From: an uncultured Victivallales bacterium
GTDB taxonomy: Bacteria; Verrucomicrobiota; Lentisphaeria; Oligosphaerales; JAFGRS01
NCBI GenBank assembly: GCA_903834675.1
Contig: CAILKC010000046.1
Span: 1-24,463 of the forward strand
DNA length: 24,463 nucleotides
Direction of reading: 5' to 3'
Part shown: piece by piece, positions 3,835-24,184 of the stretch
How positions within the stretch are numbered: the first letter of the stretch is position 1
Layout of the letters: each line of letters opens with the position of its first letter
The notes under the pieces: model-generated
Database searches by the model: none
Seen by the model: the letters and a program-made list of their open reading frames with translations, nothing else
What the model was told of the DNA's origin: nothing
Translations under genes and position numbers: made by a program

Positions 3835-4530
3835 TCAGGCCTGCGCCAAGAACTCGTCGCGCTCTGATTCCATCACCAGCCGCATGACGTCCTGAGGCGT
3901 GGCGGAGGTCAGGCACTGCGCGATGAAGTCGTCTTGCCTCAGCAGGCGTGCCATGCGTCCCATGAGGTGCAGATGAAGCTCAATGCTCTGTGAGCACATC
4001 AGGAAGAACAAATGGACGGGCTTGCCATCGGCCGCCTTGAAATCGACGCCCTCCGCGGAGCGGCCGAAGACGATGACGGCCGGTGCCCGCAGCGTCGTCA
4101 CCGGATCGCGGGGGTGAGGTAGCGCCACGCCCCTGCCCACGCCTGTGCTCAGCAGTTCTTCCCGCGCCACGCACTTCAGGCGCAGGTCGGAGACGTCCAG
4201 AAGGACAGGGTTCAGCATGCGTGGGTTGGTCAGTTCCTCGATCACCGTTTCGGGGTTGCGCCCCGTGAGCGAGAGCACCATACGGGTGTCGCTCATCACC
4301 CGGCTGATGGGGATGCCGATGTGTGAGCGCGTCAACTCCGCCAGGGGGATGTCCTCGGCATTCTCGCGCGGCGGTTCTCCAGGGAAGAAAAGGCCGTCGA
4401 TCTGGCTGCTGTTGAACCGCCATTGTCCGCCGATCTTGGCGCCCTGCAGTTGGCCGCTCTTCAGCATTCGCAGAATAGTGCGCTCATTCACCCGCAGCAT
4501 CTGCGCCAGTTCACGGAGGGTTAGAATCAT
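3835..4530 (-). CDS. Excisionase/MerR-type HTH protein fused to a PTS EIIA (fructose/nitrogen type) domain
   Basis: A 231-residue fusion. Residues 1-50 form a compact helix-turn-helix of the excisionase/HTH_17 kind (LTLRELAQMLRVNERTILRMLKSGQL, then KIGGQWRF and a short recognition tail). After a linker, residues about 72-226 are an EIIA type-2 domain. GRGVALPHPRDP puts the phospho-accepting histidine at 139, and the family's HLHLMGRMARLL helix follows. No EIIB or EIIC is nearby, so this looks regulatory rather than a sugar-transport component, with phosphorylation state probably tuning DNA binding (inference). Start: ATG 4530, preceded on its strand by AGGAG about ten bases upstream; the frame extends to a TTG at 4584 with no support. 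It diverges from the gspE-like gene across a region rich in TGACA half-sites, the natural candidate operator. Confidence 0.82.
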   Translation of the reverse strand: MILTLRELAQMLRVNERTILRMLKSGQLQGAKIGGQWRFNSSQIDGLFFPGEPPRENAEDIPLAELTRSHIGIPISRVMSDTRMVLSLTGRNPETVIEELTNPRMLNPVLLDVSDLRLKCVAREELLSTGVGRGVALPHPRDPVTTLRAPAVIVFGRSAEGVDFKAADGKPVHLFFLMCSQSIELHLHLMGRMARLLRQDDFIAQCLTSATPQDVMRLVMESERDEFLAQA

Positions 4531-4578
4531 GGTCTTGCTGCTCCTGTTTCCCAAGCTACCGCGAAGTAGACACGCTAA

Positions 4579-4649
4579 TGACAACGGTTGACAGACATGT
4601 AAAAATTGTCACGTTGTATGACAATAAGCGTATGGTTAGTACCTGTCAA
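4579..4649. promoter_or_regulatory. Divergent control region: cluster of TGACA half-sites with a 7-7-7 inverted repeat
   Basis: Five TGACA/TGTCA pentamers occur in 71 bases: TGACAA 4579-4584, TTGACA 4588-4593, ATTGTCA 4605-4611, TGACAAT 4619-4625 and TGTCAA 4644-4649. The third and fourth form a perfect inverted repeat, ATTGTCA-N7-TGACAAT. The region is locally AT-rich, unlike its flanks. TTGACA at 4588 is also a consensus -35 for plus-strand transcription, although the best -10-like TTGTAT (4614-4619) is 20 bases away. It separates the HTH-EIIA gene from the gspE-like gene. Confidence 0.55.
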
Positions 4650-7186: not shown

Positions 7187-8281
7187 TCAGGCGAGGTTGT
7201 CCAGGATGTGCTGCTGCTTATTGATAGACTCTTCGTGGATGGCCTTGAAGAGAATATCGATGAATTCGTGACTGAGCCCATACTCTGTGCCTCGCTGGTG
7301 CACCCGTTTGACGATCTGGTCCCAACGACCCGCCTGGAGCACCGTGATGCCGTTTTCCTTCTTGATGCGTCCGATATGCTCGACTACGTCCATGCGGCGG
7401 GCCAGGATTGAGAGCAGGTCACCGTCAAGTTGGTCGATGGCCTCACGCAGTTCGCTGAGCTGGCGTTGGTAGTCGGAATCGACGCTGTTGGCCTGGCGCA
7501 GGACGAGGGCGCGGAGGATGTTGCCAAGCTCCTGGGGGGTTACCTGTTGGGCCGCATCGCTCTGGGCGCTGTCGGGGTCGCAGTGAGCCTCGATCATCAG
7601 GCCGTCGAAGTCGAGGTTCACGGCTCGTTGCGCGATGTCGTGCAGGAGGTCACGGCGGCCGGCGATGTGGCTGGGGTCGCAGAACATGGGCAGGTTCGGC
7701 AGGCGGCGCCTGACCTCGATCGGAATCTGCCATTGGGGTTCGTTCCGTAGGGTGGACTTCTCGACCCCCGAGAAGCCGCGGTGGAGGGCGGCGATGCGGC
7801 TGATTCCGGCCTTGTTCAGGCGCTCGATCGCGCCGAGCCACAGCTCCACGTCCGGATTGACCGGGTTCTTCACCAGCACCGGGATATCCACGCCAGCCAG
7901 GGCATCGGCGATCTCCTGGATGGCAAAGGGGTTGACACTGGTCCGAGCGCCGACCCAGAGGAAGTCGATGCCGGCCTTCAGGGCTTCGTACACGTGCTTC
8001 ACGTTGGCGACCTCGATGGCGGTCAGCAGGCCCGTTTCGGCCTTGACGCGCTGCAGCCAGCGCAGGCCGATCGAACCGACGCCCTCGAAACAGCCTGGAC
8101 GGGTACGGGGTTTCCAGATGCCGGCGCGGTAGATTTCAATCCCGAGTTCTTTGAGGCCGCGGGCGGTGTTTATGACCTGGTCCTCAGTCTCGGCACTGCA
8201 CGGACCGGCGATGATGATCGGCTTGCGGGTGTTGCGTAGGCCCCAGGTGCTGAGGGGCGCGATCTTGAGTTCAGTGGCCAT
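7187..8281 (-). CDS. aroF: Bifunctional DAHP synthase / chorismate mutase
   Basis: A 364-residue fusion. Residues about 1-262 are a type I-beta (KDO8PS-like) DAHP synthase joining phosphoenolpyruvate and erythrose-4-phosphate: GPCSAE (26-31), KPRTRPGCFEGVG, LHRGF (metal/phosphate binding), FCDPSHIAGRRD and MIEAHCDPDSAQSD. Residues about 268-362 form an all-helical AroQ-class chorismate mutase (LREAIDQLDGDLLSILARRM, then IGRIKKENG and a C-terminal HEESINKQQ helix), which makes prephenate. The C-terminal mutase order matches that of Bacteroidetes such as Porphyromonas, where prephenate binding to the mutase domain inhibits the synthase; similar feedback is likely here but not shown. Start ATG 8281 has AGGAA upstream. 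It is the last gene of the pheA-tyrA-aroF unit, 53 bases after tyrA, and no clear intrinsic terminator follows. Confidence 0.93.
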   Translation of the reverse strand: MATELKIAPLSTWGLRNTRKPIIIAGPCSAETEDQVINTARGLKELGIEIYRAGIWKPRTRPGCFEGVGSIGLRWLQRVKAETGLLTAIEVANVKHVYEALKAGIDFLWVGARTSVNPFAIQEIADALAGVDIPVLVKNPVNPDVELWLGAIERLNKAGISRIAALHRGFSGVEKSTLRNEPQWQIPIEVRRRLPNLPMFCDPSHIAGRRDLLHDIAQRAVNLDFDGLMIEAHCDPDSAQSDAAQQVTPQELGNILRALVLRQANSVDSDYQRQLSELREAIDQLDGDLLSILARRMDVVEHIGRIKKENGITVLQAGRWDQIVKRVHQRGTEYGLSHEFIDILFKAIHEESINKQQHILDNLA

Positions 8282-8334: not shown

Positions 8335-9228
8335 TCAGCCATTGAGTACGCGACGGATGCGATTGGCGTCGCTGATGAGGTCATGGAGTGGCTTCTCTGC
8401 CCGGTCGGCGATGTGTCGGCGGAACTCCTGGAGTTTACGGATATAGGCATCCAGGACGTTGACTACGTTCTCGCTGTTATTCTGGAATATGGGGGTCCAC
8501 ATGTCGGCGGAACTCTTGGCGAGGCGTGCCGTGGAGCTGAAGCCGCCGCTGGCCAGATCGAAAATGGCCTTCTCATCCTTTTCCTTGTCCAGCACGGTGA
8601 GGGCCAGCGCGAAGCTGGTGACGTGCGAGATATGGGACACATAGGCAACATGCATATCGTGCCGCTCGGCCTGCATGTGAACCATGCGCATGTTCAGCGT
8701 GGCGTATAGACGTTCGATCCGATCGACCGCATCATCGGCGCTGTCTTCCCGGTCGCAGATGATGGCGGCCTTGCTGTCGAAGAGCCCGGAGAACGCCGCC
8801 CAGGGCCCGGAGAACTCGGTGCCGGCCATGGGGTGGGACGACACAAAACGGCGGCGGCGGGGGTGTTGGCGGACCGTCTCGACCAGCGTCTTCTTGGTGG
8901 ACGCGACGTCGGTCACGACCTGATGATCGCCGAGGTGGTCCAGGACGCTGGGCAGCAGGCCGATGGTCGCGTCCACCGGGATCGCCAGCAGGATGACATC
9001 CGCCTTAGCCATGGCCTCGCCGAGTTCGGCCGTTTCGTCCACCAGGCCGATGCGCAAGGCGGTGGCCGCATGCAGGCGATCGCGGTCGACGCCGATCACG
9101 TGCCGCGCGTAGCCACGGCGCTTCAGGTCAATGGCCATGGAGCCGCCGATGAGGCCGAGGCCGACGACCGCCAGCACGACTCCGCTGGCGGGCAGGGTAG
9201 AGGATGGGGTTGGGGTCGCGTTGTCCAT
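8335..9228 (-). CDS. tyrA: Prephenate dehydrogenase
   Basis: NAD(P)-dependent oxidative decarboxylation of prephenate to 4-hydroxyphenylpyruvate, the Tyr branch. The 297-residue protein has the nucleotide-binding fold with GLGLIGGS (about 23-30), then DVASTKK, the family signature SSHPMAGTE with the catalytic-region His, and a helical C-terminal dimer domain containing HMHVAYVSHISH-type histidines (written here as two overlapping parts, HDMHVAYVSHISH). No ACT domain is appended. The start ATG is only six bases beyond the pheA stop, with no convincing ribosome site of its own, which argues for translational coupling to pheA. The first 15 residues are Thr/Ser/Pro-rich and not part of the fold. 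Confidence 0.93.
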   Translation of the reverse strand: MDNATPTPSSTLPASGVVLAVVGLGLIGGSMAIDLKRRGYARHVIGVDRDRLHAATALRIGLVDETAELGEAMAKADVILLAIPVDATIGLLPSVLDHLGDHQVVTDVASTKKTLVETVRQHPRRRRFVSSHPMAGTEFSGPWAAFSGLFDSKAAIICDREDSADDAVDRIERLYATLNMRMVHMQAERHDMHVAYVSHISHVTSFALALTVLDKEKDEKAIFDLASGGFSSTARLAKSSADMWTPIFQNNSENVVNVLDAYIRKLQEFRRHIADRAEKPLHDLISDANRIRRVLNG

Positions 9229-9234
9229 GGAGTT

Positions 9235-10137
9235 TCAGCAGGGCACTTCAACGCCTGCCCCTTTGGGTTGTCCGATATTCTGTTTGTACATACTCTCGAA
9301 GGACTTCTGGCCCTGTTTGTACTCGCCCAGCACCTCGAAGATATCGGTGAGAGGACGGATGGCCGACAGGGCCTGCCGATAGCGGACGAAGTCGCTGAAG
9401 CAGACGTCCACATAGAAGAGGTAGCGCCACTCTTCGCCGATGATAGGGAGGCTCTGGATCTTGGTCAGGTTCATCCCGTAGAAGGCCAGGACGCTGAGGA
9501 CCTGGGAGAGGCAGCCGACCTGGTGTTGCAGCGAGAAGCAGATGCTGGCCTTGTCGGCGTCGCGGATGCCGACCGCGTTCAGCTCGTCGGTCAGGATGAG
9601 GAAGCGGGTGTAGTTGACCTTGTTCGCTTCAATCTCGTCAGCGAGGACCTCGAGGCCGTACAACTCTGCCGCGCGAGCGTTGGCGATGGCGGCGGTGCCG
9701 GGGCGCTGTTCATCGGCGATACGCTTGGCGCTGGTGGCCGTATCTCCGGCGGCGATCAGTTTGATCTTGGGCAGGGACTTGAAGAAGGTGCGGCACTGGT
9801 TGATGGCCATCGGGTGGGAGTACACTTCGGTGAGGTCTGCCAGCTTTTGCCCCTTGAGTCCGAGCAGGCTGAGGGCAATGCGCAAGTAGGACTCGCCGAC
9901 GACCCGCAGTTTCGACTCGCGCAGCAGGGCGTAGTTGGGCAGAATGCTGCCTGCCACGGTATTCTCGATCGCCATGACGCCGTAGTCTGCGTCGCGGCGC
10001 TCCAGGGCCGCAAAGAGTTCATCAAAGGTCTCGGTGGTGACCAGTTGCACCGGCTGCTCGAAATAGCTGACGGCAGCCATCTCGTGAAAGGATCCGCTGA
10101 TCCCCTGGATGGCGACTCGCGCGGGACGGTTTGCCAT
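9235..10137 (-). CDS. pheA: Prephenate dehydratase with C-terminal ACT domain
   Basis: Converts prephenate to phenylpyruvate, the Phe branch. The 300-residue protein starts VAIQGISGSFHEMAA and has the two periplasmic-binding-like lobes (ENTVAGSI; YSHPMAINQC) and the catalytic Thr-Arg-Phe at 177-179 (NYTRF). Residues about 195-275 are an ACT domain. The allosteric ESRP motif of well-studied enzymes is here IQSLP (KIQSLPIIGEEW, 226-237), a form I associate with Bacteroidetes-type enzymes, so Phe feedback may differ. A chorismate mutase domain is absent and is supplied instead by the fusion protein downstream. GGTGAG precedes the start by about eight bases. The gene is first in the operon, immediately after a terminator hairpin and a Tyr/Phe-rich leader ORF on the same strand, so its transcription is predicted to be attenuated. 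Confidence 0.94.
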   Translation of the reverse strand: MANRPARVAIQGISGSFHEMAAVSYFEQPVQLVTTETFDELFAALERRDADYGVMAIENTVAGSILPNYALLRESKLRVVGESYLRIALSLLGLKGQKLADLTEVYSHPMAINQCRTFFKSLPKIKLIAAGDTATSAKRIADEQRPGTAAIANARAAELYGLEVLADEIEANKVNYTRFLILTDELNAVGIRDADKASICFSLQHQVGCLSQVLSVLAFYGMNLTKIQSLPIIGEEWRYLFYVDVCFSDFVRYRQALSAIRPLTDIFEVLGEYKQGQKSFESMYKQNIGQPKGAGVEVPC

Positions 10138-10162
10138 GGCGACATCTCACCGGTTGCGGTCC

Positions 10163-10201
10163 ACAAGAACAGAAAACCGACCTCGTTTTCGCGAGGCCGG
10201 T
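10163..10201 (-). terminator. Attenuator terminator upstream of pheA
   Basis: On the minus strand, ACCGGCCTCG (10201-10192) pairs with CGAGGTCGGT (10185-10176): ten pairs including one G-U, with a six-base CGAAAA loop. TTTCTGTTCTT follows directly. This is a strong intrinsic terminator. It ends about 25 bases before the pheA ATG and sits after a leader ORF rather than after a gene, so it would block pheA unless bypassed. Confidence 0.88.
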
Positions 10202-10262
10202 CGTTGTTCGGGCATCGGTGCAGGCAACCACGACCACGCCTCAGCCGCCGAAGCGGAAGGCG
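10193..10262 (-). promoter_or_regulatory. Alternative leader RNA folds (protector and antiterminator) of the pheA attenuator
   Basis: Two mutually exclusive helices precede the terminator. Protector: CGCCT (10262-10258) with AGGCG (10241-10237), plus CCGC-UUCG-GCGG (10256-10245) closed by a stable UUCG tetraloop. Antiterminator: GAGGCGUGGUCGU (10242-10230) with ACGACCGGCCUC (10204-10193), eleven Watson-Crick pairs, one G-U and one bulged G. The antiterminator takes the whole 5' arm of the terminator but one base. Its 5' strand begins inside the leader stop codon, so a ribosome at the stop would mask it. A ribosome stalled on the Tyr/Phe codons would instead disrupt the protector and free it. 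Confidence 0.75.
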
Positions 10263-10294
10263 AAGTAATAGCTACCGTAAGGCACCGTGTTCAT
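10241..10294 (-). CDS. Tyr/Phe-rich leader peptide of the pheA-tyrA-aroF operon
   Basis: A 17-codon ORF reading MNTVPYGSYYFAFRFGG, then TGA. Three Tyr (6, 9, 10) and three Phe (11, 13, 15) make up over a third of it, with YYF in a row. It lies between a predicted promoter and the pheA terminator, and its coding sequence forms one arm of the protector hairpin. This is the layout of classical ribosome-mediated attenuators such as enterobacterial pheL. Unlike PheL it contains Tyr as well as Phe, which suits an operon serving both branches. The ribosome site is weak (AGAG about eight bases upstream). An in-frame ATG ten codons upstream (at 10324) overlaps the predicted -10 box, so it is unlikely to be used from that promoter. 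The same frame stays open upstream inside the Cys-rich gene but has no other support there. Confidence 0.82.
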   Translation of the reverse strand: MNTVPYGSYYFAFRFGG

Positions 10295-10322
10295 CGTCGA
10301 CTCTGGATTCTGCGGCCTATCC

Positions 10323-10380
10323 ATGATAACCGAACCGCAATAAACACTCAAACCGTATCCTCTCGCGCTGCCCCTGTCAA
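10323..10380 (-). promoter_or_regulatory. Overlapping candidate promoters for the pheA leader
   Basis: Two 17-base-spaced pairs on the minus strand. The better one is TTGAGT (10351-10346) with TATCAT (10328-10323), predicting initiation near 10316, about 22 bases before the leader ATG. The other is TTGACA (10380-10375) with the weaker TACGGT (10357-10352). The TTGACA overlaps the stop codon of the upstream Cys-rich gene and lies between CCCC and GGGG, a small hairpin. The stretch is AT-richer than its surroundings. Confidence 0.6.
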
Positions 10381-11594
10381 GGGGCTGGGTCGGTCTTCGC
10401 GGAGGGCAGGCCGGCCATGACGTTTGCCCTGAAGGTCTCGACGTCGGCCACGCCGCACTGCACATAGCGTCCGTGGCTGACGCGGCGGTCGAACTCATCG
10501 CCCGCGAGCATCAGGCTGGTGATGTGTCTGCCATCGCGGCTGAAGGCGTGGATGCGTCCGCTGCGGCCGGCGACGATCACGGACTGTTTGAAGCGGTCGG
10601 TGTAGACATCCTGCGCCGCGGCTGCGATCAGGTCATCGAAGGCTTTATGGACCGGGCGGTTCTGGCCGGCTCTGATCTCTGCGTGGGGGGTTCGGCGCCA
10701 CTGTTGCCGACCTTTCTGCTCGATGGAGTGCGCCAGATGGCGAAGGATGGCAAAGGCCTTCTCGTGCGTCTGCTCGTCCTGTTCTCGGCGGTTGGCGTGT
10801 TGCCAGGTATCGCTGAGCGAGGCTGTCTGGCGTCTTGCCTCCGCGATGGCATCGTACACCCGGGCGCAGGCGGAGCGCTGGTCCGCGGGAGCATCGGCCA
10901 GGGCCTCCCGCAGGAGCGGGGCTGAGATGACCTGCAGGTGCAACTGGTGGCGCTTGTTCTCGACGATCTGCACACTGAGGGCCGCCCGCGTACCCCTGAC
11001 CTGCAGGTAGCCGGCCACGACCTGGCCCCAGACGCGGTAGGTGAAGGAATTGCGCCCGAAGCTGCGCAGCTGCGCGGCGACGAGACGGGTTCTGCCCAGC
11101 ACCCGCGCCAGCAACTCGGGGTGGTCATCGAACAACCTGTCGGTGCGGTCGTCGCTCAGTACCAGCAGGAAACTGAAAAACTCCTGCCAGCCCGGCCGAC
11201 CGGTAGACTCGTAGCCGGTGAAGACCTCTCCGGGGAGGGCGGGTATCGCGTGGTCGCAGTCCGAGCTAGCACAGGCGTAACAGTAGGCGCGACCGGCGGT
11301 GAAAGCATGCGTTGCCGAGGCGGCCTCCGAGAAATGCCTGAAGGCTTCCTCTGCCAGTTCGGTGGGTGAGAGTTCAGGATGCCAGTGTAAGCAGAGTCCC
11401 GCGGCACTGGGCCGATCCGCCTCACGACCGTTGCTCTCGAGCGCCGCGGCCTGAACCAGCTCTTGCAGCGCCTGGTGTGCGGCGGCGGCGGCCTGGACGA
11501 GGTGTGCCGGGCAGGCCGGGCAGGCGGCGCTGTCGTCCGGGGTCTCCGCGGGGTGCTCTTGGCGTGGGGCCATGGCGCGAACGGCTCCCATCAT
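10377..11594 (-). CDS. Conserved-looking Cys-rich protein of unknown function
   Basis: I do not recognise this 405-residue protein. It has two potential metal sites: CPACP at about 25-29, and CYACASSDCDH at about 105-115 with an HWH at 70-72 before it. The middle (about 135-225) has hydrophobic, beta/alpha-like spacing (EFFSFLLVLSDDR, LLARVLGRTRLVAAQLRSFG). About 235-310 is helical and charged, and the C-terminal 90 residues include strand-like VIVAGRSGRIHAF and HITSLMLAGDEF. There is no signal peptide or membrane span. It starts one base after the parC stop (TGA-T-ATGATG), so it is probably co-translated with parC; ATG 11573 is an alternative start with GGGAG before it. Placement suggests a topoisomerase-linked or housekeeping role, but nothing in the sequence fixes a function. 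Confidence 0.8.
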   Translation of the reverse strand: MMGAVRAMAPRQEHPAETPDDSAACPACPAHLVQAAAAAHQALQELVQAAALESNGREADRPSAAGLCLHWHPELSPTELAEEAFRHFSEAASATHAFTAGRAYCYACASSDCDHAIPALPGEVFTGYESTGRPGWQEFFSFLLVLSDDRTDRLFDDHPELLARVLGRTRLVAAQLRSFGRNSFTYRVWGQVVAGYLQVRGTRAALSVQIVENKRHQLHLQVISAPLLREALADAPADQRSACARVYDAIAEARRQTASLSDTWQHANRREQDEQTHEKAFAILRHLAHSIEQKGRQQWRRTPHAEIRAGQNRPVHKAFDDLIAAAAQDVYTDRFKQSVIVAGRSGRIHAFSRDGRHITSLMLAGDEFDRRVSHGRYVQCGVADVETFRANVMAGLPSAKTDPAP

Positions 11595-11595
11595 A

Positions 11596-14184
11596 TCACT
11601 CGAGGAAGAAAGGGGTTTCCTCGTCAATCAGGCGGTGTGCCGGATCGCGTTTCGGCGGTTTCTCGGGGGGAACTGCCGTGCCGACTGGAGGACGGCGGCT
11701 CTTGGGCTGTGGGGCGTTGGTATCGGTCGGCTTTGGGGTGACGGTTTCGGGCGCCTGGGGGGCATCGGCGGGACGCTTGCTCTTCCCTGGCTTGGGGACA
11801 GGGGTGGGCGGCGGTGGCTCGGCCTCGTGGTCCAGCGCTGGGTCGGCGGCCTTAACTTTCGCGGCCGCGACCGTCCCCTCGGGCGGCGGCGCGCCCGAGG
11901 CCGTCAATTTGCCGGTTCTGCCGGTTGGCGCAGGGACGGTGCCCGGCCGCGAAGCGAGCTTGCTGCCGGGCTTGGGCATTGGCTCCCCTGACTCACTGGC
12001 GCCGTGCGCAGCTGGAGGAGCGGCCACCAAGGCGGCGGCAGGGGGCGGCGCGAGCTCTGGGTTCGGCGTCTCTGCGGTTGACGGAAGCTCGGCCGGCGGC
12101 ACCGGGGCGTCGGCCGTGGCGGGGGGCGTTACGTCCTCTACCGGGGCAGCCCCACGGTCCACCAGCACGACGGTGTCAACGGGGTGGCTGCTGACCTTGA
12201 AACCGCGAGCCGTGGCTGAGCGCATCTCGATCTCAGCGAAGGCTACCCGGATGCTGTCGACCTGGAGTCGCGGGTTCGGGGTGAGGACGAGATCCAGGAC
12301 CACACCTTGGTTGGTGTAGAGGGCCTCGATAAGGCTGTTCTTGGGCAGGGAGGCGTACTCTTTCTCCATGATGTACCGGTCGATGCGGAAGCGCTTGGCG
12401 TAGTGGGCGTTGGTGTGCCGGTCACGGTAGAGGATGGAGTACACCTGGTCGCGCTCGGCGCGCAGGAGGTACTTGACCGGCCCGACGTAGAGCTTCGGGG
12501 GGATCGGGACCACCTGGTAGACGCCGTCGTTACGCAGCAGCACCAGCCGGTCAAACTCGCTGCACAACAGCGGTGACTCGGTCTTGCTAGAGTTGCGGAT
12601 TTCGCTGCCCACAAAGTGATTGGCTCGATCATGGCCGACCTTGACATTACGCAGCGCCACATCGCGGGCGTCAACCTGTTCCAGATCCGTGATCTGGGTG
12701 CGCCGGGGGAACTGGCTGCCGTGCTTAGCGAGGAGTTCTTCGAGGTACGCCACGGCGTACTCCACGAGGTGCTTGAGGTGATGGCGCGCCTGTTTCAGGC
12801 CCGCCTCGATCTTCTCAAGTTCCTCGCGGTTGCGGCCGAGGTCGAAGCGGGAGATGCGGCGAATCTGGATCTGGAGAAGCTTGTCGATATCGTCGTCGGT
12901 GAGGTCACGCCTGAGCTGGTCGCGGAAGGGTTCCAGGCCGGCGCGGACTTCGGCGACAACGGTCTCGTAGGTCTCGGCTTCCTCAATGCGCTTGTAGACC
13001 CGGTGCTCGATGAAGAGCTGGACGAGGGTGCGCTCATGGAAGCGTTCGCCGAGCTTGCCCACCTCGAGCTCGAGTTCGCGACGCAGGTAGAGGAGCAGCT
13101 TCTCGGTGTTGCGCCGAACCACTTCGCTGACGGTCATCTCCACGGGGGTCTTGTCGCGGATGACCATGATGGTAGAGGACACGCTGACCTGGCAGTCCGT
13201 ATAGGCGTAGAGCTGCTTGATGGCCTCCTCGGCGTAGACTCCACGAGGCAGGAGAATCTCAATTTCGACATTTTCGGCGGTGTAGTCGTTGATGCCGGCG
13301 ATCTTGATCTTGTTACGCCGGGCGGCCTCCTCGATGGAGGCCATGAGGGATTCCGTGGTCGTGGTTGCCGGGACTTCGCGGATGATAAGACGTTTGTCGG
13401 AATCCGCTTCGATCCGGGCCCGCAGGACAATGCGGCCCCTGCCGTCGGCGTACTCGCTGACGTCCATAAGACCGCCCTGGCGGAAGTCGGGAAAGAGACG
13501 GAACGGCCGGTTTCGCAGAATGGCGATCTGTGCTTGCAGCAGTTCGTTGAAGTTGTGCGGCATGATGTGCGTGGTCATGCCGACCGCGATGCCTTCAGCC
13601 CCCAGCAGCAGCAGGGCTGGCACCTTGGCGGGAAGGGTCACCGGCTCACGGTTACGACCGTCGTAACTGTCGATGTATTCGGTGATTTCGGGGTTGAACA
13701 TGACCTCACGTGCGAGGGGCGTCAGACGGCATTCGATATAGCGCGCGGCGGAGGCTGGGTCGCCGGTGAGGATGTTGCCAAAATTCCCCTGGCGGTCGAT
13801 GAAGTATTCCTTGCAGGCCAGTCCGACCAGGGCGCTGCCGATAGAGGCGTCGCCGTGCGGATGGTACTGCATGGTGTGGCCGATGACATTGGCCACTTTG
13901 TGGAAGCGGCCGTCGTCCATGACCTGCAGGGAGTGCAGGATCCGGCGTTGGACGGGCTTGAGCCCGTCGTCCACATCCGGTATCGCCCGGTCTTTGATCA
14001 CATAGCTGGCATACTCGATGAAGTTCTGCGCCATGAGTTGCCGCAGGCCATCGGGGTCGGCCGCCGGGTGGGCCGGCATGGCGATGGGGGTAGACGCATC
14101 GCCGTCACTGCCGGCGGCGTCGTCCTCGTCACCGCTGGGTCTGGCGTCGGCGCTGGAGGGGGTGTTGGTGGTGTCATCGGCCAT
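11596..14184 (-). CDS. parC: Type IIA topoisomerase subunit A (ParC/GyrA family)
   Basis: Breakage-reunion subunit that forms the transient protein-DNA link while passing a duplex through a break. The 862-residue protein has a disordered acidic N-terminus (1-45), the winged-helix domain (DDGLKPVQRRILHSL, HPHGDASIG), catalytic Tyr149 in ARYIECR, the tower and coiled-coil region to about 490, and a short partial C-terminal domain (about 530-675). There is no GyrA-box (QRRGGKG), so this is topoisomerase IV-like rather than gyrase. The sequence resembles Bacteroidetes ParC. Residues about 678-862 form a Pro/Ala/Lys-rich low-complexity tail ending RLIDEETPFFLE. The quinolone-contact positions after HPHGD read A-S-I-G-S, lacking the usual Ser and acidic residue. 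It lies 32 bases downstream of parE and overlaps no neighbour. Confidence 0.93.
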   Translation of the reverse strand: MADDTTNTPSSADARPSGDEDDAAGSDGDASTPIAMPAHPAADPDGLRQLMAQNFIEYASYVIKDRAIPDVDDGLKPVQRRILHSLQVMDDGRFHKVANVIGHTMQYHPHGDASIGSALVGLACKEYFIDRQGNFGNILTGDPASAARYIECRLTPLAREVMFNPEITEYIDSYDGRNREPVTLPAKVPALLLLGAEGIAVGMTTHIMPHNFNELLQAQIAILRNRPFRLFPDFRQGGLMDVSEYADGRGRIVLRARIEADSDKRLIIREVPATTTTESLMASIEEAARRNKIKIAGINDYTAENVEIEILLPRGVYAEEAIKQLYAYTDCQVSVSSTIMVIRDKTPVEMTVSEVVRRNTEKLLLYLRRELELEVGKLGERFHERTLVQLFIEHRVYKRIEEAETYETVVAEVRAGLEPFRDQLRRDLTDDDIDKLLQIQIRRISRFDLGRNREELEKIEAGLKQARHHLKHLVEYAVAYLEELLAKHGSQFPRRTQITDLEQVDARDVALRNVKVGHDRANHFVGSEIRNSSKTESPLLCSEFDRLVLLRNDGVYQVVPIPPKLYVGPVKYLLRAERDQVYSILYRDRHTNAHYAKRFRIDRYIMEKEYASLPKNSLIEALYTNQGVVLDLVLTPNPRLQVDSIRVAFAEIEMRSATARGFKVSSHPVDTVVLVDRGAAPVEDVTPPATADAPVPPAELPSTAETPNPELAPPPAAALVAAPPAAHGASESGEPMPKPGSKLASRPGTVPAPTGRTGKLTASGAPPPEGTVAAAKVKAADPALDHEAEPPPPTPVPKPGKSKRPADAPQAPETVTPKPTDTNAPQPKSRRPPVGTAVPPEKPPKRDPAHRLIDEETPFFLE

Positions 14185-22897: not shown

Positions 22898-24184
22898 ATG
22901 CAAGCTGACTCGGCAGGCAGCGTCGCGACTCTTCCCACGGCGCATCCGTGGAGGACCGTCTTGGCGATTGGCGGCGCGGCCGCCTTCCTTCTGTTCGGTT
23001 ACGAGTTTGTCAGGAGCGTCTCGACCTCCTTGTTTATCGGCGCCTACGGCGCGAAGCATCTGCCGGTCGTGATGGCGTTGGGGCCGGTTGGCACGATCCT
23101 GATCGTGTACATGTATGGCTTTCTGCTCTCGCGGCTTGGTCCCGAGCGCGCCCTGTTGGCGACGTCGGCGATCTCGGCGGTGGTGATTGTGCTGTGCTAC
23201 GTGGCCCTGAGGCAAGGCTTTGCCTTGGCTGCGGGGGTGCTGTACGTCTTCCGCGAGGCCTACATCGTCGTGTTGGTGGAGCAGTACTGGTCCTTCATCA
23301 ACAGCACCTTTCAGACGACCGAGGCCCGCAAGGTGAACGGTCCGATCACGGGTCTGGGGTCTGCCGGCGCGGTGCTGGGCGGTCTGACGGTCAGTCTCTA
23401 TGCGAAGCAACTGGGGTCGGAGACGCTGTTGCTGTTCGCGGCGGGTTCGCTGATTCCGGCCGGTATCCTCTCCTGGCTGGCCTATACCTCGGCAGGCGAG
23501 CCGAAGCCGACCCCGGAGGAAGCTGGCGGTCGTCAAGGCCATCTGGCGCTTGGGCTGTTCGCCCGCTCGCCGTACCTGATCTACCTGGCCTGCCTGATCG
23601 CGACGACCCAGGTGGTGTCCACGGTGCTGGACCTACGCTTCTCCGGCCTGGTCGAGGCGGCGATGCCGCTGAAGGACGCCCGCACGGCCTACCTGGGCGG
23701 GTTCTACGCCAAGCTCAACGTGGCCTCGTTCCTGATGCAGTTTATGGCCACGCCGCTGCTGCTGAGGGCGGTGGCTCTGCCGGTGCTTCATGGCGCCATC
23801 CCCCTGGTGCATATGGTCGCCTGTCTGTTCCTGCTCTTCCGGCCGTCGCTCACCAGCGGAGCACTCGCCTATAGTGTATTTAAGGTCCTGGACTACTCCG
23901 TCTTCCGGGCCGCCAAGGAGATGTTCTACATTCCGCTCTCCTTCGACGCACGCTACCGCGCCAAGTCGGTCATCGATGCCTTCGGTTACCGCTTCGCCAA
24001 GGGCGGCGCCTCGATGCTGCTGGGGGTGGCCGGCAAGTTCTTCGACAAGCTGCCTGGGGCACTCTACCCGGCACTGGCATTGGTGGCGAGTGCCGTCTGG
24101 CTCCCGCTGGTACTGCGGCTCACTCTGGGCCGGCCTCCGGATAACTCCGCCGCCCTCCAGCAGCCGCGCTCCAAGTCCGAGTGA
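22898..24184 (+). CDS. NTT/Npt1-like (ADP/ATP translocase-related) MFS membrane carrier
   Basis: A 428-residue integral membrane protein with about 11-12 hydrophobic helices, beginning at residue 17 (WRTVLAIGGAAAFLLFGYEFVR) and running to about 410. The second half carries the segment typical of the Npt1/TlcC-like group: YSVFRAAKEMFYIPLSFDARYRAKSVIDAF (a run given here only as its recognisable parts, YSVFRAAKEMFYIPL and RYRAKSVIDAFGYR). In chlamydiae and rickettsiae, family members exchange ATP/ADP or import nucleotides. Relatives in free-living bacteria are mostly uncharacterised, and this one is shorter than classic NTTs (about 500), so the substrate is open. AAGAGAG lies about nine bases before the ATG. 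The basic, Ser-rich tail (PRSKSE) ends 40 bases before a tandem repeat array. Confidence 0.8.
   Translation: MQADSAGSVATLPTAHPWRTVLAIGGAAAFLLFGYEFVRSVSTSLFIGAYGAKHLPVVMALGPVGTILIVYMYGFLLSRLGPERALLATSAISAVVIVLCYVALRQGFALAAGVLYVFREAYIVVLVEQYWSFINSTFQTTEARKVNGPITGLGSAGAVLGGLTVSLYAKQLGSETLLLFAAGSLIPAGILSWLAYTSAGEPKPTPEEAGGRQGHLALGLFARSPYLIYLACLIATTQVVSTVLDLRFSGLVEAAMPLKDARTAYLGGFYAKLNVASFLMQFMATPLLLRAVALPVLHGAIPLVHMVACLFLLFRPSLTSGALAYSVFKVLDYSVFRAAKEMFYIPLSFDARYRAKSVIDAFGYRFAKGGASMLLGVAGKFFDKLPGALYPALALVASAVWLPLVLRLTLGRPPDNSAALQQPRSKSE

Follow-up and report, generated by a model that had tools for sequence, protein, structure and literature searches.

A predicted Tyr/Phe leader-peptide attenuator before pheA-tyrA-aroF in a Victivallales bacterium, and the codon mix of related leaders in Bacteroidota

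The leader of the enterobacterial pheA attenuator, pheL, carries regulatory codons for phenylalanine only, and ilvGMEDA and thrABC are preceded by multi-amino-acid leaders. Leader-peptide attenuation of pheA in enterobacteria is mentioned in PMC2659441. For Bacteroides thetaiotaomicron, Table 7 of PMC1173090 (2005) lists a putative attenuator before pheA > hisHb > aroAIbeta-aroQ > tyrA, an entry drawn from Merino's database of predicted attenuators, and the passages of PMC7366714 on leader-like small ORFs in the same organism do not name pheA. In Flavobacterium psychrophilum, a transcribed, structured 5' element without an Rfam hit was reported upstream of pheA, with occurrences in other Flavobacteriaceae genera, and the authors regarded attenuation by leader peptides as strongly indicated in front of amino acid operons (PMC9723704, 2021). 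The uORFC-13-1 motif before aroF of Acholeplasma comprises a Phe-containing uORF followed by a terminator (PMC8632094). PMC3766115, which examined the four amino acid leader families present in Rfam at the time, considered that these motifs may stem from gamma-proteobacteria and have seldom been transferred.

The DNA analyzed here, termed the window, is a stretch of 24,463 nucleotides from an uncultured Victivallales bacterium (contig CAILKC010000046.1). As in pheL, a leader ORF, a protector, an antiterminator and a terminator are found before pheA; pheL controls pheA, whereas the window element places Tyr and Phe codons before pheA, tyrA and aroF. The element very probably acts as a ribosome-mediated transcription attenuator that serves the entire Phe/Tyr operon and responds to charged tRNA-Tyr and tRNA-Phe. 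Computation brings out its parts, their conservation and covariation, the geometry of the switch, and a codon mix that tracks the gene content of the operon.

Leader, RNA helices and operon in the window

The features are compiled in Table 1. The pheA-tyrA-aroF operon named in an earlier note on this DNA is borne out by domain matches in Pfam and NCBIfam; prephenate dehydratase is the sole Pfam domain of the window PheA, in which the search found no chorismate mutase domain. A reading of the ORF likewise agrees with the 17-codon leader with three Tyr and three Phe codons described there, and the Tyr/Phe density of this leader reaches p = 0.005, the floor of a test with 200 dinucleotide shuffles of the 300 bp upstream of pheA. 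None of 200 dinucleotide shuffles folds as well as 10300-10163 (z = -4.66), whose fold contains the protector hairpin closed by UUCG, as had been proposed. Terminator and antiterminator are present too, with pair counts that differ from those given before: the terminator stem has 11 pairs instead of ten, and the antiterminator 15 instead of 12, with one mismatch and one bulged base, sharing ten bases instead of nine with the terminator. Against dinucleotide shuffles, the terminator reaches p = 0.024 (again the floor of the test, with 40 shuffles of the 300 bp upstream). The antiterminator was scored three times, with region 2 cut differently or the sequence reshuffled, and gave p = 0.020, 0.003 and 0.015.

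Table 1. Attenuator and operon features, in window coordinates
Feature	Position	Strand	Basis
Candidate promoter TTGACA (10380-10375), 17-base spacer, TACGGT (10357-10352)	10352..10380	-	Counterparts among relatives
TTGAGT-17-TATCAT, promoter of the earlier note; alternative or accidental	10323..10351	-	9/12 consensus matches
Leader peptide ORF MNTVPYGSYYFAFRFGG, 17 codons	10241..10294	-	ATG 10294-10292, TGA 10243-10241; Tyr/Phe density beyond shuffles
Regulatory codons Tyr6, Tyr9, Tyr10, Phe11, Phe13, Phe15	10250..10279	-	ORF reading and ribosome-masking test
Protector helix (1:2), hides antiterminator 5' arm without ribosome; UUCG loop 10253-10250	10224..10277	-	MFE and centroid fold; free-RNA state in masking test
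Antiterminator 5' arm (region 2), starts inside leader stop codon	10226..10242	-	Pairing scan and covariation
Antiterminator 3' arm (region 3), ten bases common to terminator	10193..10208	-	Pairing scan and covariation
Intrinsic terminator, stem 10202-10192 with 10185-10175, T-rich tail to 10165	10165..10202	-	Terminator scan and covariation
pheA, prephenate dehydratase, Bacteroidota type	9235..10137	-	Pfam PDT match only; tree placement
tyrA, prephenate dehydrogenase	8335..9228	-	NCBIfam NF006307 above cut-off
aroF, DAHP synthase fused to chorismate mutase type II	7187..8281	-	Pfam DAHP_synth_1 and CM_2

The promoter was revised. The hexamers TTGAGT-17-TATCAT, earlier taken for the promoter, were set aside since they have no counterpart in locus L003, whose PheA is 94% identical, whereas TTGACA-17-TACGGT has counterparts with a 17-base spacer in all seven Lentisphaerota-type loci, matching 8-11 of 12 consensus bases and beginning 59-102 bases 5' of the leader ATG. 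In L001 the counterpart reads TTGACA-TATAGT, and in L003 a candidate with 15-base spacing scores one better than the 17-base counterpart. The window candidate itself fits 9 of 12 consensus bases and has a weak -10 hexamer, with just 3 of 6.

Its -35 hexamer TTGACA overlaps the stop codon of a 416-residue ORF (10377-11627, minus strand), which lies directly upstream of the attenuator region and has no match in Pfam or NCBIfam. Elsewhere in the window, a protein encoded at 22898-24184 (plus strand) partially matches the TLC ATP/ADP transporters (54 residues, E 3e-10), which are known chiefly from intracellular bacteria, and a PTS EIIA-like domain is fused to a helix-turn-helix domain at 3835-4584 (minus strand).

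Close relatives, covariation and the position of the ribosome

A PheA protein search of genome contigs and of 47 genomes of the order yielded six further loci with the PheA type of the window (L001, L002, L003, L063, L085 and L086; PheA identity 57-94%). Three of the records are titled Lentisphaerae, Lentisphaeria or Victivallales, that of L063 is titled Verrucomicrobia, and two come from the same order; a class-level search, in which 180 of 197 genomes matched, returned close PheA proteins (E below 1e-100) only from the six genomes already found. The earlier note had proposed looking in related genomes for a conserved Tyr/Phe-rich mini-ORF and covarying stems, and these are indeed present: leader and terminator occur in all six close relatives, the antiterminator is significant in five (p = 0.12 in L086), and both helices show compensatory changes. 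The leaders end in ALRYYGTSYAFRFSG (L001, L063), RFEYGYAYVFAF (L002), VRYYRYDFAFRFSG (L003), RYYEFSYFYP (L085) and YSFAFYFYRFYR (L086), such that the Tyr/Phe composition is kept and the sequence varies. In L085 two units stand in series before pheA (1118-1491 in L085 coordinates, plus strand), a Tyr/Phe leader with its terminator and then a second short ORF, MTQSITSGKEARLNARGKRTLAFGGFYAAGPGGSVRARILG, with a strong terminator-like hairpin directly before pheA; because of the two units this locus was scored on its own upstream stretch.

The variation of the peptides bears on how the ribosome would be stalled. In TnaC-like systems an arrest peptide stalls the ribosome on a free amino acid, and an aromatic-rich nascent peptide that bound free Phe or Tyr, in place of a sensor of tRNA charging, would look alike beside the same RNA switch. 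Since the peptide sequences vary freely among relatives while their Tyr/Phe richness is kept, and since codon identity follows gene content (see below), sensing by an arrest peptide is very unlikely.

In the seven-row alignment, compensatory changes on both sides were found in 4 of the 11 terminator pairs and 7 of the 15 antiterminator pairs, with covariation scores reached by 1 and 0 of 500 shuffles, respectively; slid versions of both helices score lower, and 86% (terminator) and 75% (antiterminator) of the cells are able to pair. With so few rows, all of them related, and with structures taken from the window itself, the covariation of both helices is to be taken as support and not as proof. 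Conservation of the terminator and antiterminator also speaks against a leader that merely aids pheA translation by reinitiation or coupling, with the terminator hairpin incidental. Leader genes near structural genes have been proposed to help reinitiation (PMC4833913); the present leader stop, however, is separated by 103 bases from the pheA ATG, against the peak of 11-14 bases given for Bacteroidetes in the same source, and this explanation is thus extremely unlikely.

Attenuation through the ribosome was modeled by masking a ribosome at each leader codon and computing the antiterminator probability in the nascent RNA, before the last terminator arm is made. In the window this probability is 0.00 with the RNA free or the ribosome at the stop codon, and 0.67-0.97 with the ribosome at Tyr/Phe codons 6-15. 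For L003, L001, L063, L002 and L085 it amounts to 0.00-0.04 in the free state, 0.65-0.98 at most Tyr/Phe codons and 0.00-0.03 at the stop; the last one or two Tyr/Phe codons open the antiterminator little (0.35 at Phe18 of L001, 0.14 at Phe15 of L063, 0.34 at Phe15 of L002, 0.07 at Phe15 and 0.00 at Tyr16 of L085). L086 is without a closed free state, with 0.58 in free RNA, 0.62 at most codons and 0.02 at the stop. The rise from free to stalled is thus seen in six of the seven loci and the fall from stalled to stop in all seven, and switching by ribosome position, in the nascent RNA as distinct from the full RNA at equilibrium, is clear in the window and five of six relatives and partial in L086. 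The test bears out the geometry put forward in the earlier note, in which a stall at the Tyr/Phe codons frees the antiterminator arm and a ribosome at the stop codon covers it. With the full RNA at equilibrium the terminator mostly wins despite the stalled ribosome (P(term) 0.36-0.89 in the window and, in L001, 0.93-0.95 whichever codon is occupied); a working switch therefore has to be kinetic, deciding during transcription. Such a kinetic decision is accepted for classical attenuators.

Spread in Bacteroidota and the codon mix of the leaders

A total of 195 pheA loci with enough upstream sequence, mostly from Bacteroidota and many of them close kin, was scored against shuffles; L035, L070 and L187 were left out of scoring, as were L073 and L262, with too little upstream sequence. 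Extra genomes from the class or orders of the Bacteroidota loci matched in 52 of 198, 49 of 119 and 70 of 168 cases, with overlap, and stretches were taken from 51 of 52, 47 of 49 (the other two were already in) and 20 of 21 new matched genomes. A significant leader precedes pheA in 155 loci, of which 130 have a terminator; 112 of these have an antiterminator as well, giving the full triad in 112 of 195, and no significant leader was detected in 40. Four pairs of loci share identical upstream stretches; with the four duplicates removed, the figures are 150 leaders, 127 with terminator and 110 full triads among 191. In 103 significant units, the first base of the antiterminator 5' arm ranges from 35 bases upstream to 2 bases downstream of the end of the leader stop codon. 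A first antiterminator scan, with region 2 taken from near the stop codon, gave 22 of 45 loci at p<=0.05, and a second, with region 2 taken from after the last clustered Tyr/Phe codon, a cut chosen after the first result, gave 40 of 45. The element had been presented earlier as one of the present lineage: its presence there holds, its peculiarity to the lineage does not, as many members lie in Bacteroidota. These findings suggest that aromatic amino acid synthesis is commonly under ribosome-mediated attenuation in Bacteroidota, and that such control extends to Lentisphaerota.

Leaders beyond shuffles in 155 of 195 loci are difficult to reconcile with a Tyr/Phe ORF that is a by-product of a T-box, a riboswitch or a protein-bound leader, although a structured 5' leader with a terminator would be common to all of these. 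Rfam holds a T-box covariance model; neither the window nor any of 20 related loci matched a family at gathering score, and window 10100-10420 gave no match up to E=5, the T-box model and the amino acid leader families included, which renders this class of regulators exceedingly improbable here.

As controls, 651 stretches were scored: the reverse complement of the upstream stretch (195), far upstream (72), downstream forward (192) and downstream reverse (192). They gave 19 leaders, one terminator and no triad, to which the reverse complement, the fairest control owing to its complementary base make-up, contributed nine leaders, one terminator and no triad in 195. Although terminator-like sites do arise by chance (3 found against 1.3 expected in 2.7 kb), the probability that a Tyr/Phe mini-ORF lies by accident next to an ordinary terminator belonging to the upstream gene is practically negligible in view of the covariation and of 112 triads in 195 pheA loci against none in 651 controls.

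The longer PheA type of Victivallales, a chorismate mutase fusion as inferred from frame length, showed no Tyr/Phe mini-ORF in 23 of 24 loci (L087-L110; one in L109), a rough negative, as the 700 bases before the PheA match include the fused domain; L107 and L110 have short upstream stretches, and in L090 and L098 an open frame covers the whole stretch. In L037-L039, L156 and L161 (three titled Algoriphagus), with the same PheA and with tyrA downstream, no leader was detected, and these are places where loss of the attenuator could be studied. A plasmid search with pheA and the leader region gave no match.

Tyr codons were counted in the densest 12-codon stretch of leaders at p<=0.05; presence of tyrA or aroF was determined by tblastn on the same strand within 5.2 kb, and a gene was scored as absent only if 3.3 kb or more of sequence was available. 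Of the 11 leaders with neither gene nearby, ten are rich in Phe and have one clustered Tyr codon or none, namely seven from Marinifilum (e.g. MRTIFSFSFFFSFFFFGDEKDRILMV, no Tyr), L192 and L193 (none) and L198 (one). With tyrA or aroF near, 138 of 140 leaders have at least two Tyr codons, L167 and L173 having a single clustered one. Before the last 20 loci the four counts were 10, 0, 123 and 2 (Fisher p=1.7e-13, ignoring kinship), and without repeated loci they are 9, 1, 135 and 2. The eleventh lone-pheA case, L257 with two Tyr, looks like a false call: no plausible leader is seen in its sequence, and the ORF that was called begins 320 bases upstream, at a point that may lie within the preceding gene. 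Outside the tabulation stand L195, where a lone pheA follows a leader with six Phe codons and no Tyr codon (p=0.07), and L013, L031 and L063, which have leaders and a downstream stretch or protein that is too short.

On the tree, the lone-pheA state changed four times, corresponding to four independent lineages. Over 200 random pairings, 3.9 of 4 independent pairs (3.4 with L257) showed the leader changing in step, and it never changed in the opposite way; with only four independent pairs the sign test cannot reach significance, its floor being 0.125 (with L257 counted, the test gives 0.125-0.5). The codon mix tracks operon gene content and, as a natural experiment, supports function. It is a repeated experiment on the specificity of a translation-coupled sensor, in which the controlled genes change and the codons change along with them.

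The detached genes were sought in nine lone-pheA genomes (five Marinifilum, G414, G424, G434 and G494); aroF was found in all nine and tyrA in eight, G424 being the genome in which it was not found. In the five Marinifilum, two leaders in series (e.g. MKTVSTYISNFYYFWFYFYPIR then MSNRAFTYRFYFYYFWFNTNRAGCLIH) precede a putative aminotransferase gene, followed by tyrA and aroF. G414 has the leader MNNTFGYYAFYYYFFYNN, G434 has MAPVHTYYAWSFFFFYFQNKRGHAV before tyrA, in G424 a large ORF and aroF follow MIKNISVFAYFYYYFYFSKK, and G494 has two leaders. Among the detached tyrA/aroF units, scored at seven of the nine loci, a terminator was found in 11 of 11 and an antiterminator in 10 of 11 at p<=0.05. 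Tandem Tyr/Phe(/Trp) leaders before tyrA-aroF occur in L244-L248 (Marinifilum) and L250 (G494), each unit with its own terminator where scored (L244, L245, L247, L250), and in several of them Trp codons adjoin Tyr/Phe. Upstream of second aroF copies (L253-L256) only weaker candidate Tyr/Phe mini-ORFs were seen.

Proposed mechanism, origin and relation to described systems

The Tyr and Phe codons of the leader correspond to the products of the operon, and we infer a response to tRNA charging. Transcription would start a few bases downstream of the 10357-10352 hexamer. When tRNA-Tyr or tRNA-Phe is low in charge, the ribosome would wait at codons 6-15 and break the protector helix; judging from sequence and folding, 10242-10226 would then be free to capture 10208-10193 before the second arm of the terminator is made, and RNA polymerase would read through into pheA-tyrA-aroF. 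With both tRNAs charged, the ribosome would reach the stop codon and cover region 2, allowing the terminator to form. If the leader is not translated, the protector helix would favor termination as well.

The origin of the operon was addressed by a PheA tree of 58 rows (12 of 34 Victivallales, 40 of 173 Bacteroidota-type and six Lentisphaerota-type; six long-branched rows were omitted). In a single clade (99/97), the window PheA and five relatives lie among Bacteroidota-type PheA, apart from that of the other Victivallales (100/99). In 0 of 200 bootstrap trees do the Bacteroidota rows fall on one side of a branch, and rooting on the Victivallales rows, which is an assumption, puts the window clade among the Bacteroidota rows. 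Operon and attenuator probably moved together between phyla, in one direction or the other. It appears rather likely that a multi-amino-acid attenuator family, still unnamed, is spread in Bacteroidota and entered one Lentisphaerota clade together with a Bacteroidota-type operon. Its codon repertoire would have been retuned at each operon rearrangement: a lone pheA would have a Phe-dominated leader, control of tyrA or the DAHP synthase-mutase would go with Tyr plus Phe codons, in some cases joined by Trp, and some split operons would carry tandem units.

In the portions of the literature covered by the search, no description was found of a mixed Tyr/Phe leader in these lineages or of a link between codon mix and gene content; an earlier description is possible. 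As in ilvGMEDA and thrABC, one leader carries codons for several amino acids; the window element differs in serving the aromatic branch and in a codon mix that varies with operon content. The putative B. thetaiotaomicron attenuator probably belongs to the same element family; the entry in PMC1173090 names no leader peptide, codon content or Lentisphaerota member. For the Flavobacterium element, the sections of PMC9723704 on it give no codon content, phylum-wide spread or link to operon content. The uORFC-13-1 motif resembles the window element in having a Phe uORF and a terminator before a DAHP synthase gene, and differs in its lineage and in being described, in the relevant part of PMC8632094, only as a U run coding for at least one Phe. 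What is contributed here is the breadth of the element and the match of its codon mix to operon content, and the loci supply a set from which an RNA family could be built. Their spread in Bacteroidota and Lentisphaerota contrasts with the possible gamma-proteobacterial origin put forward in PMC3766115.
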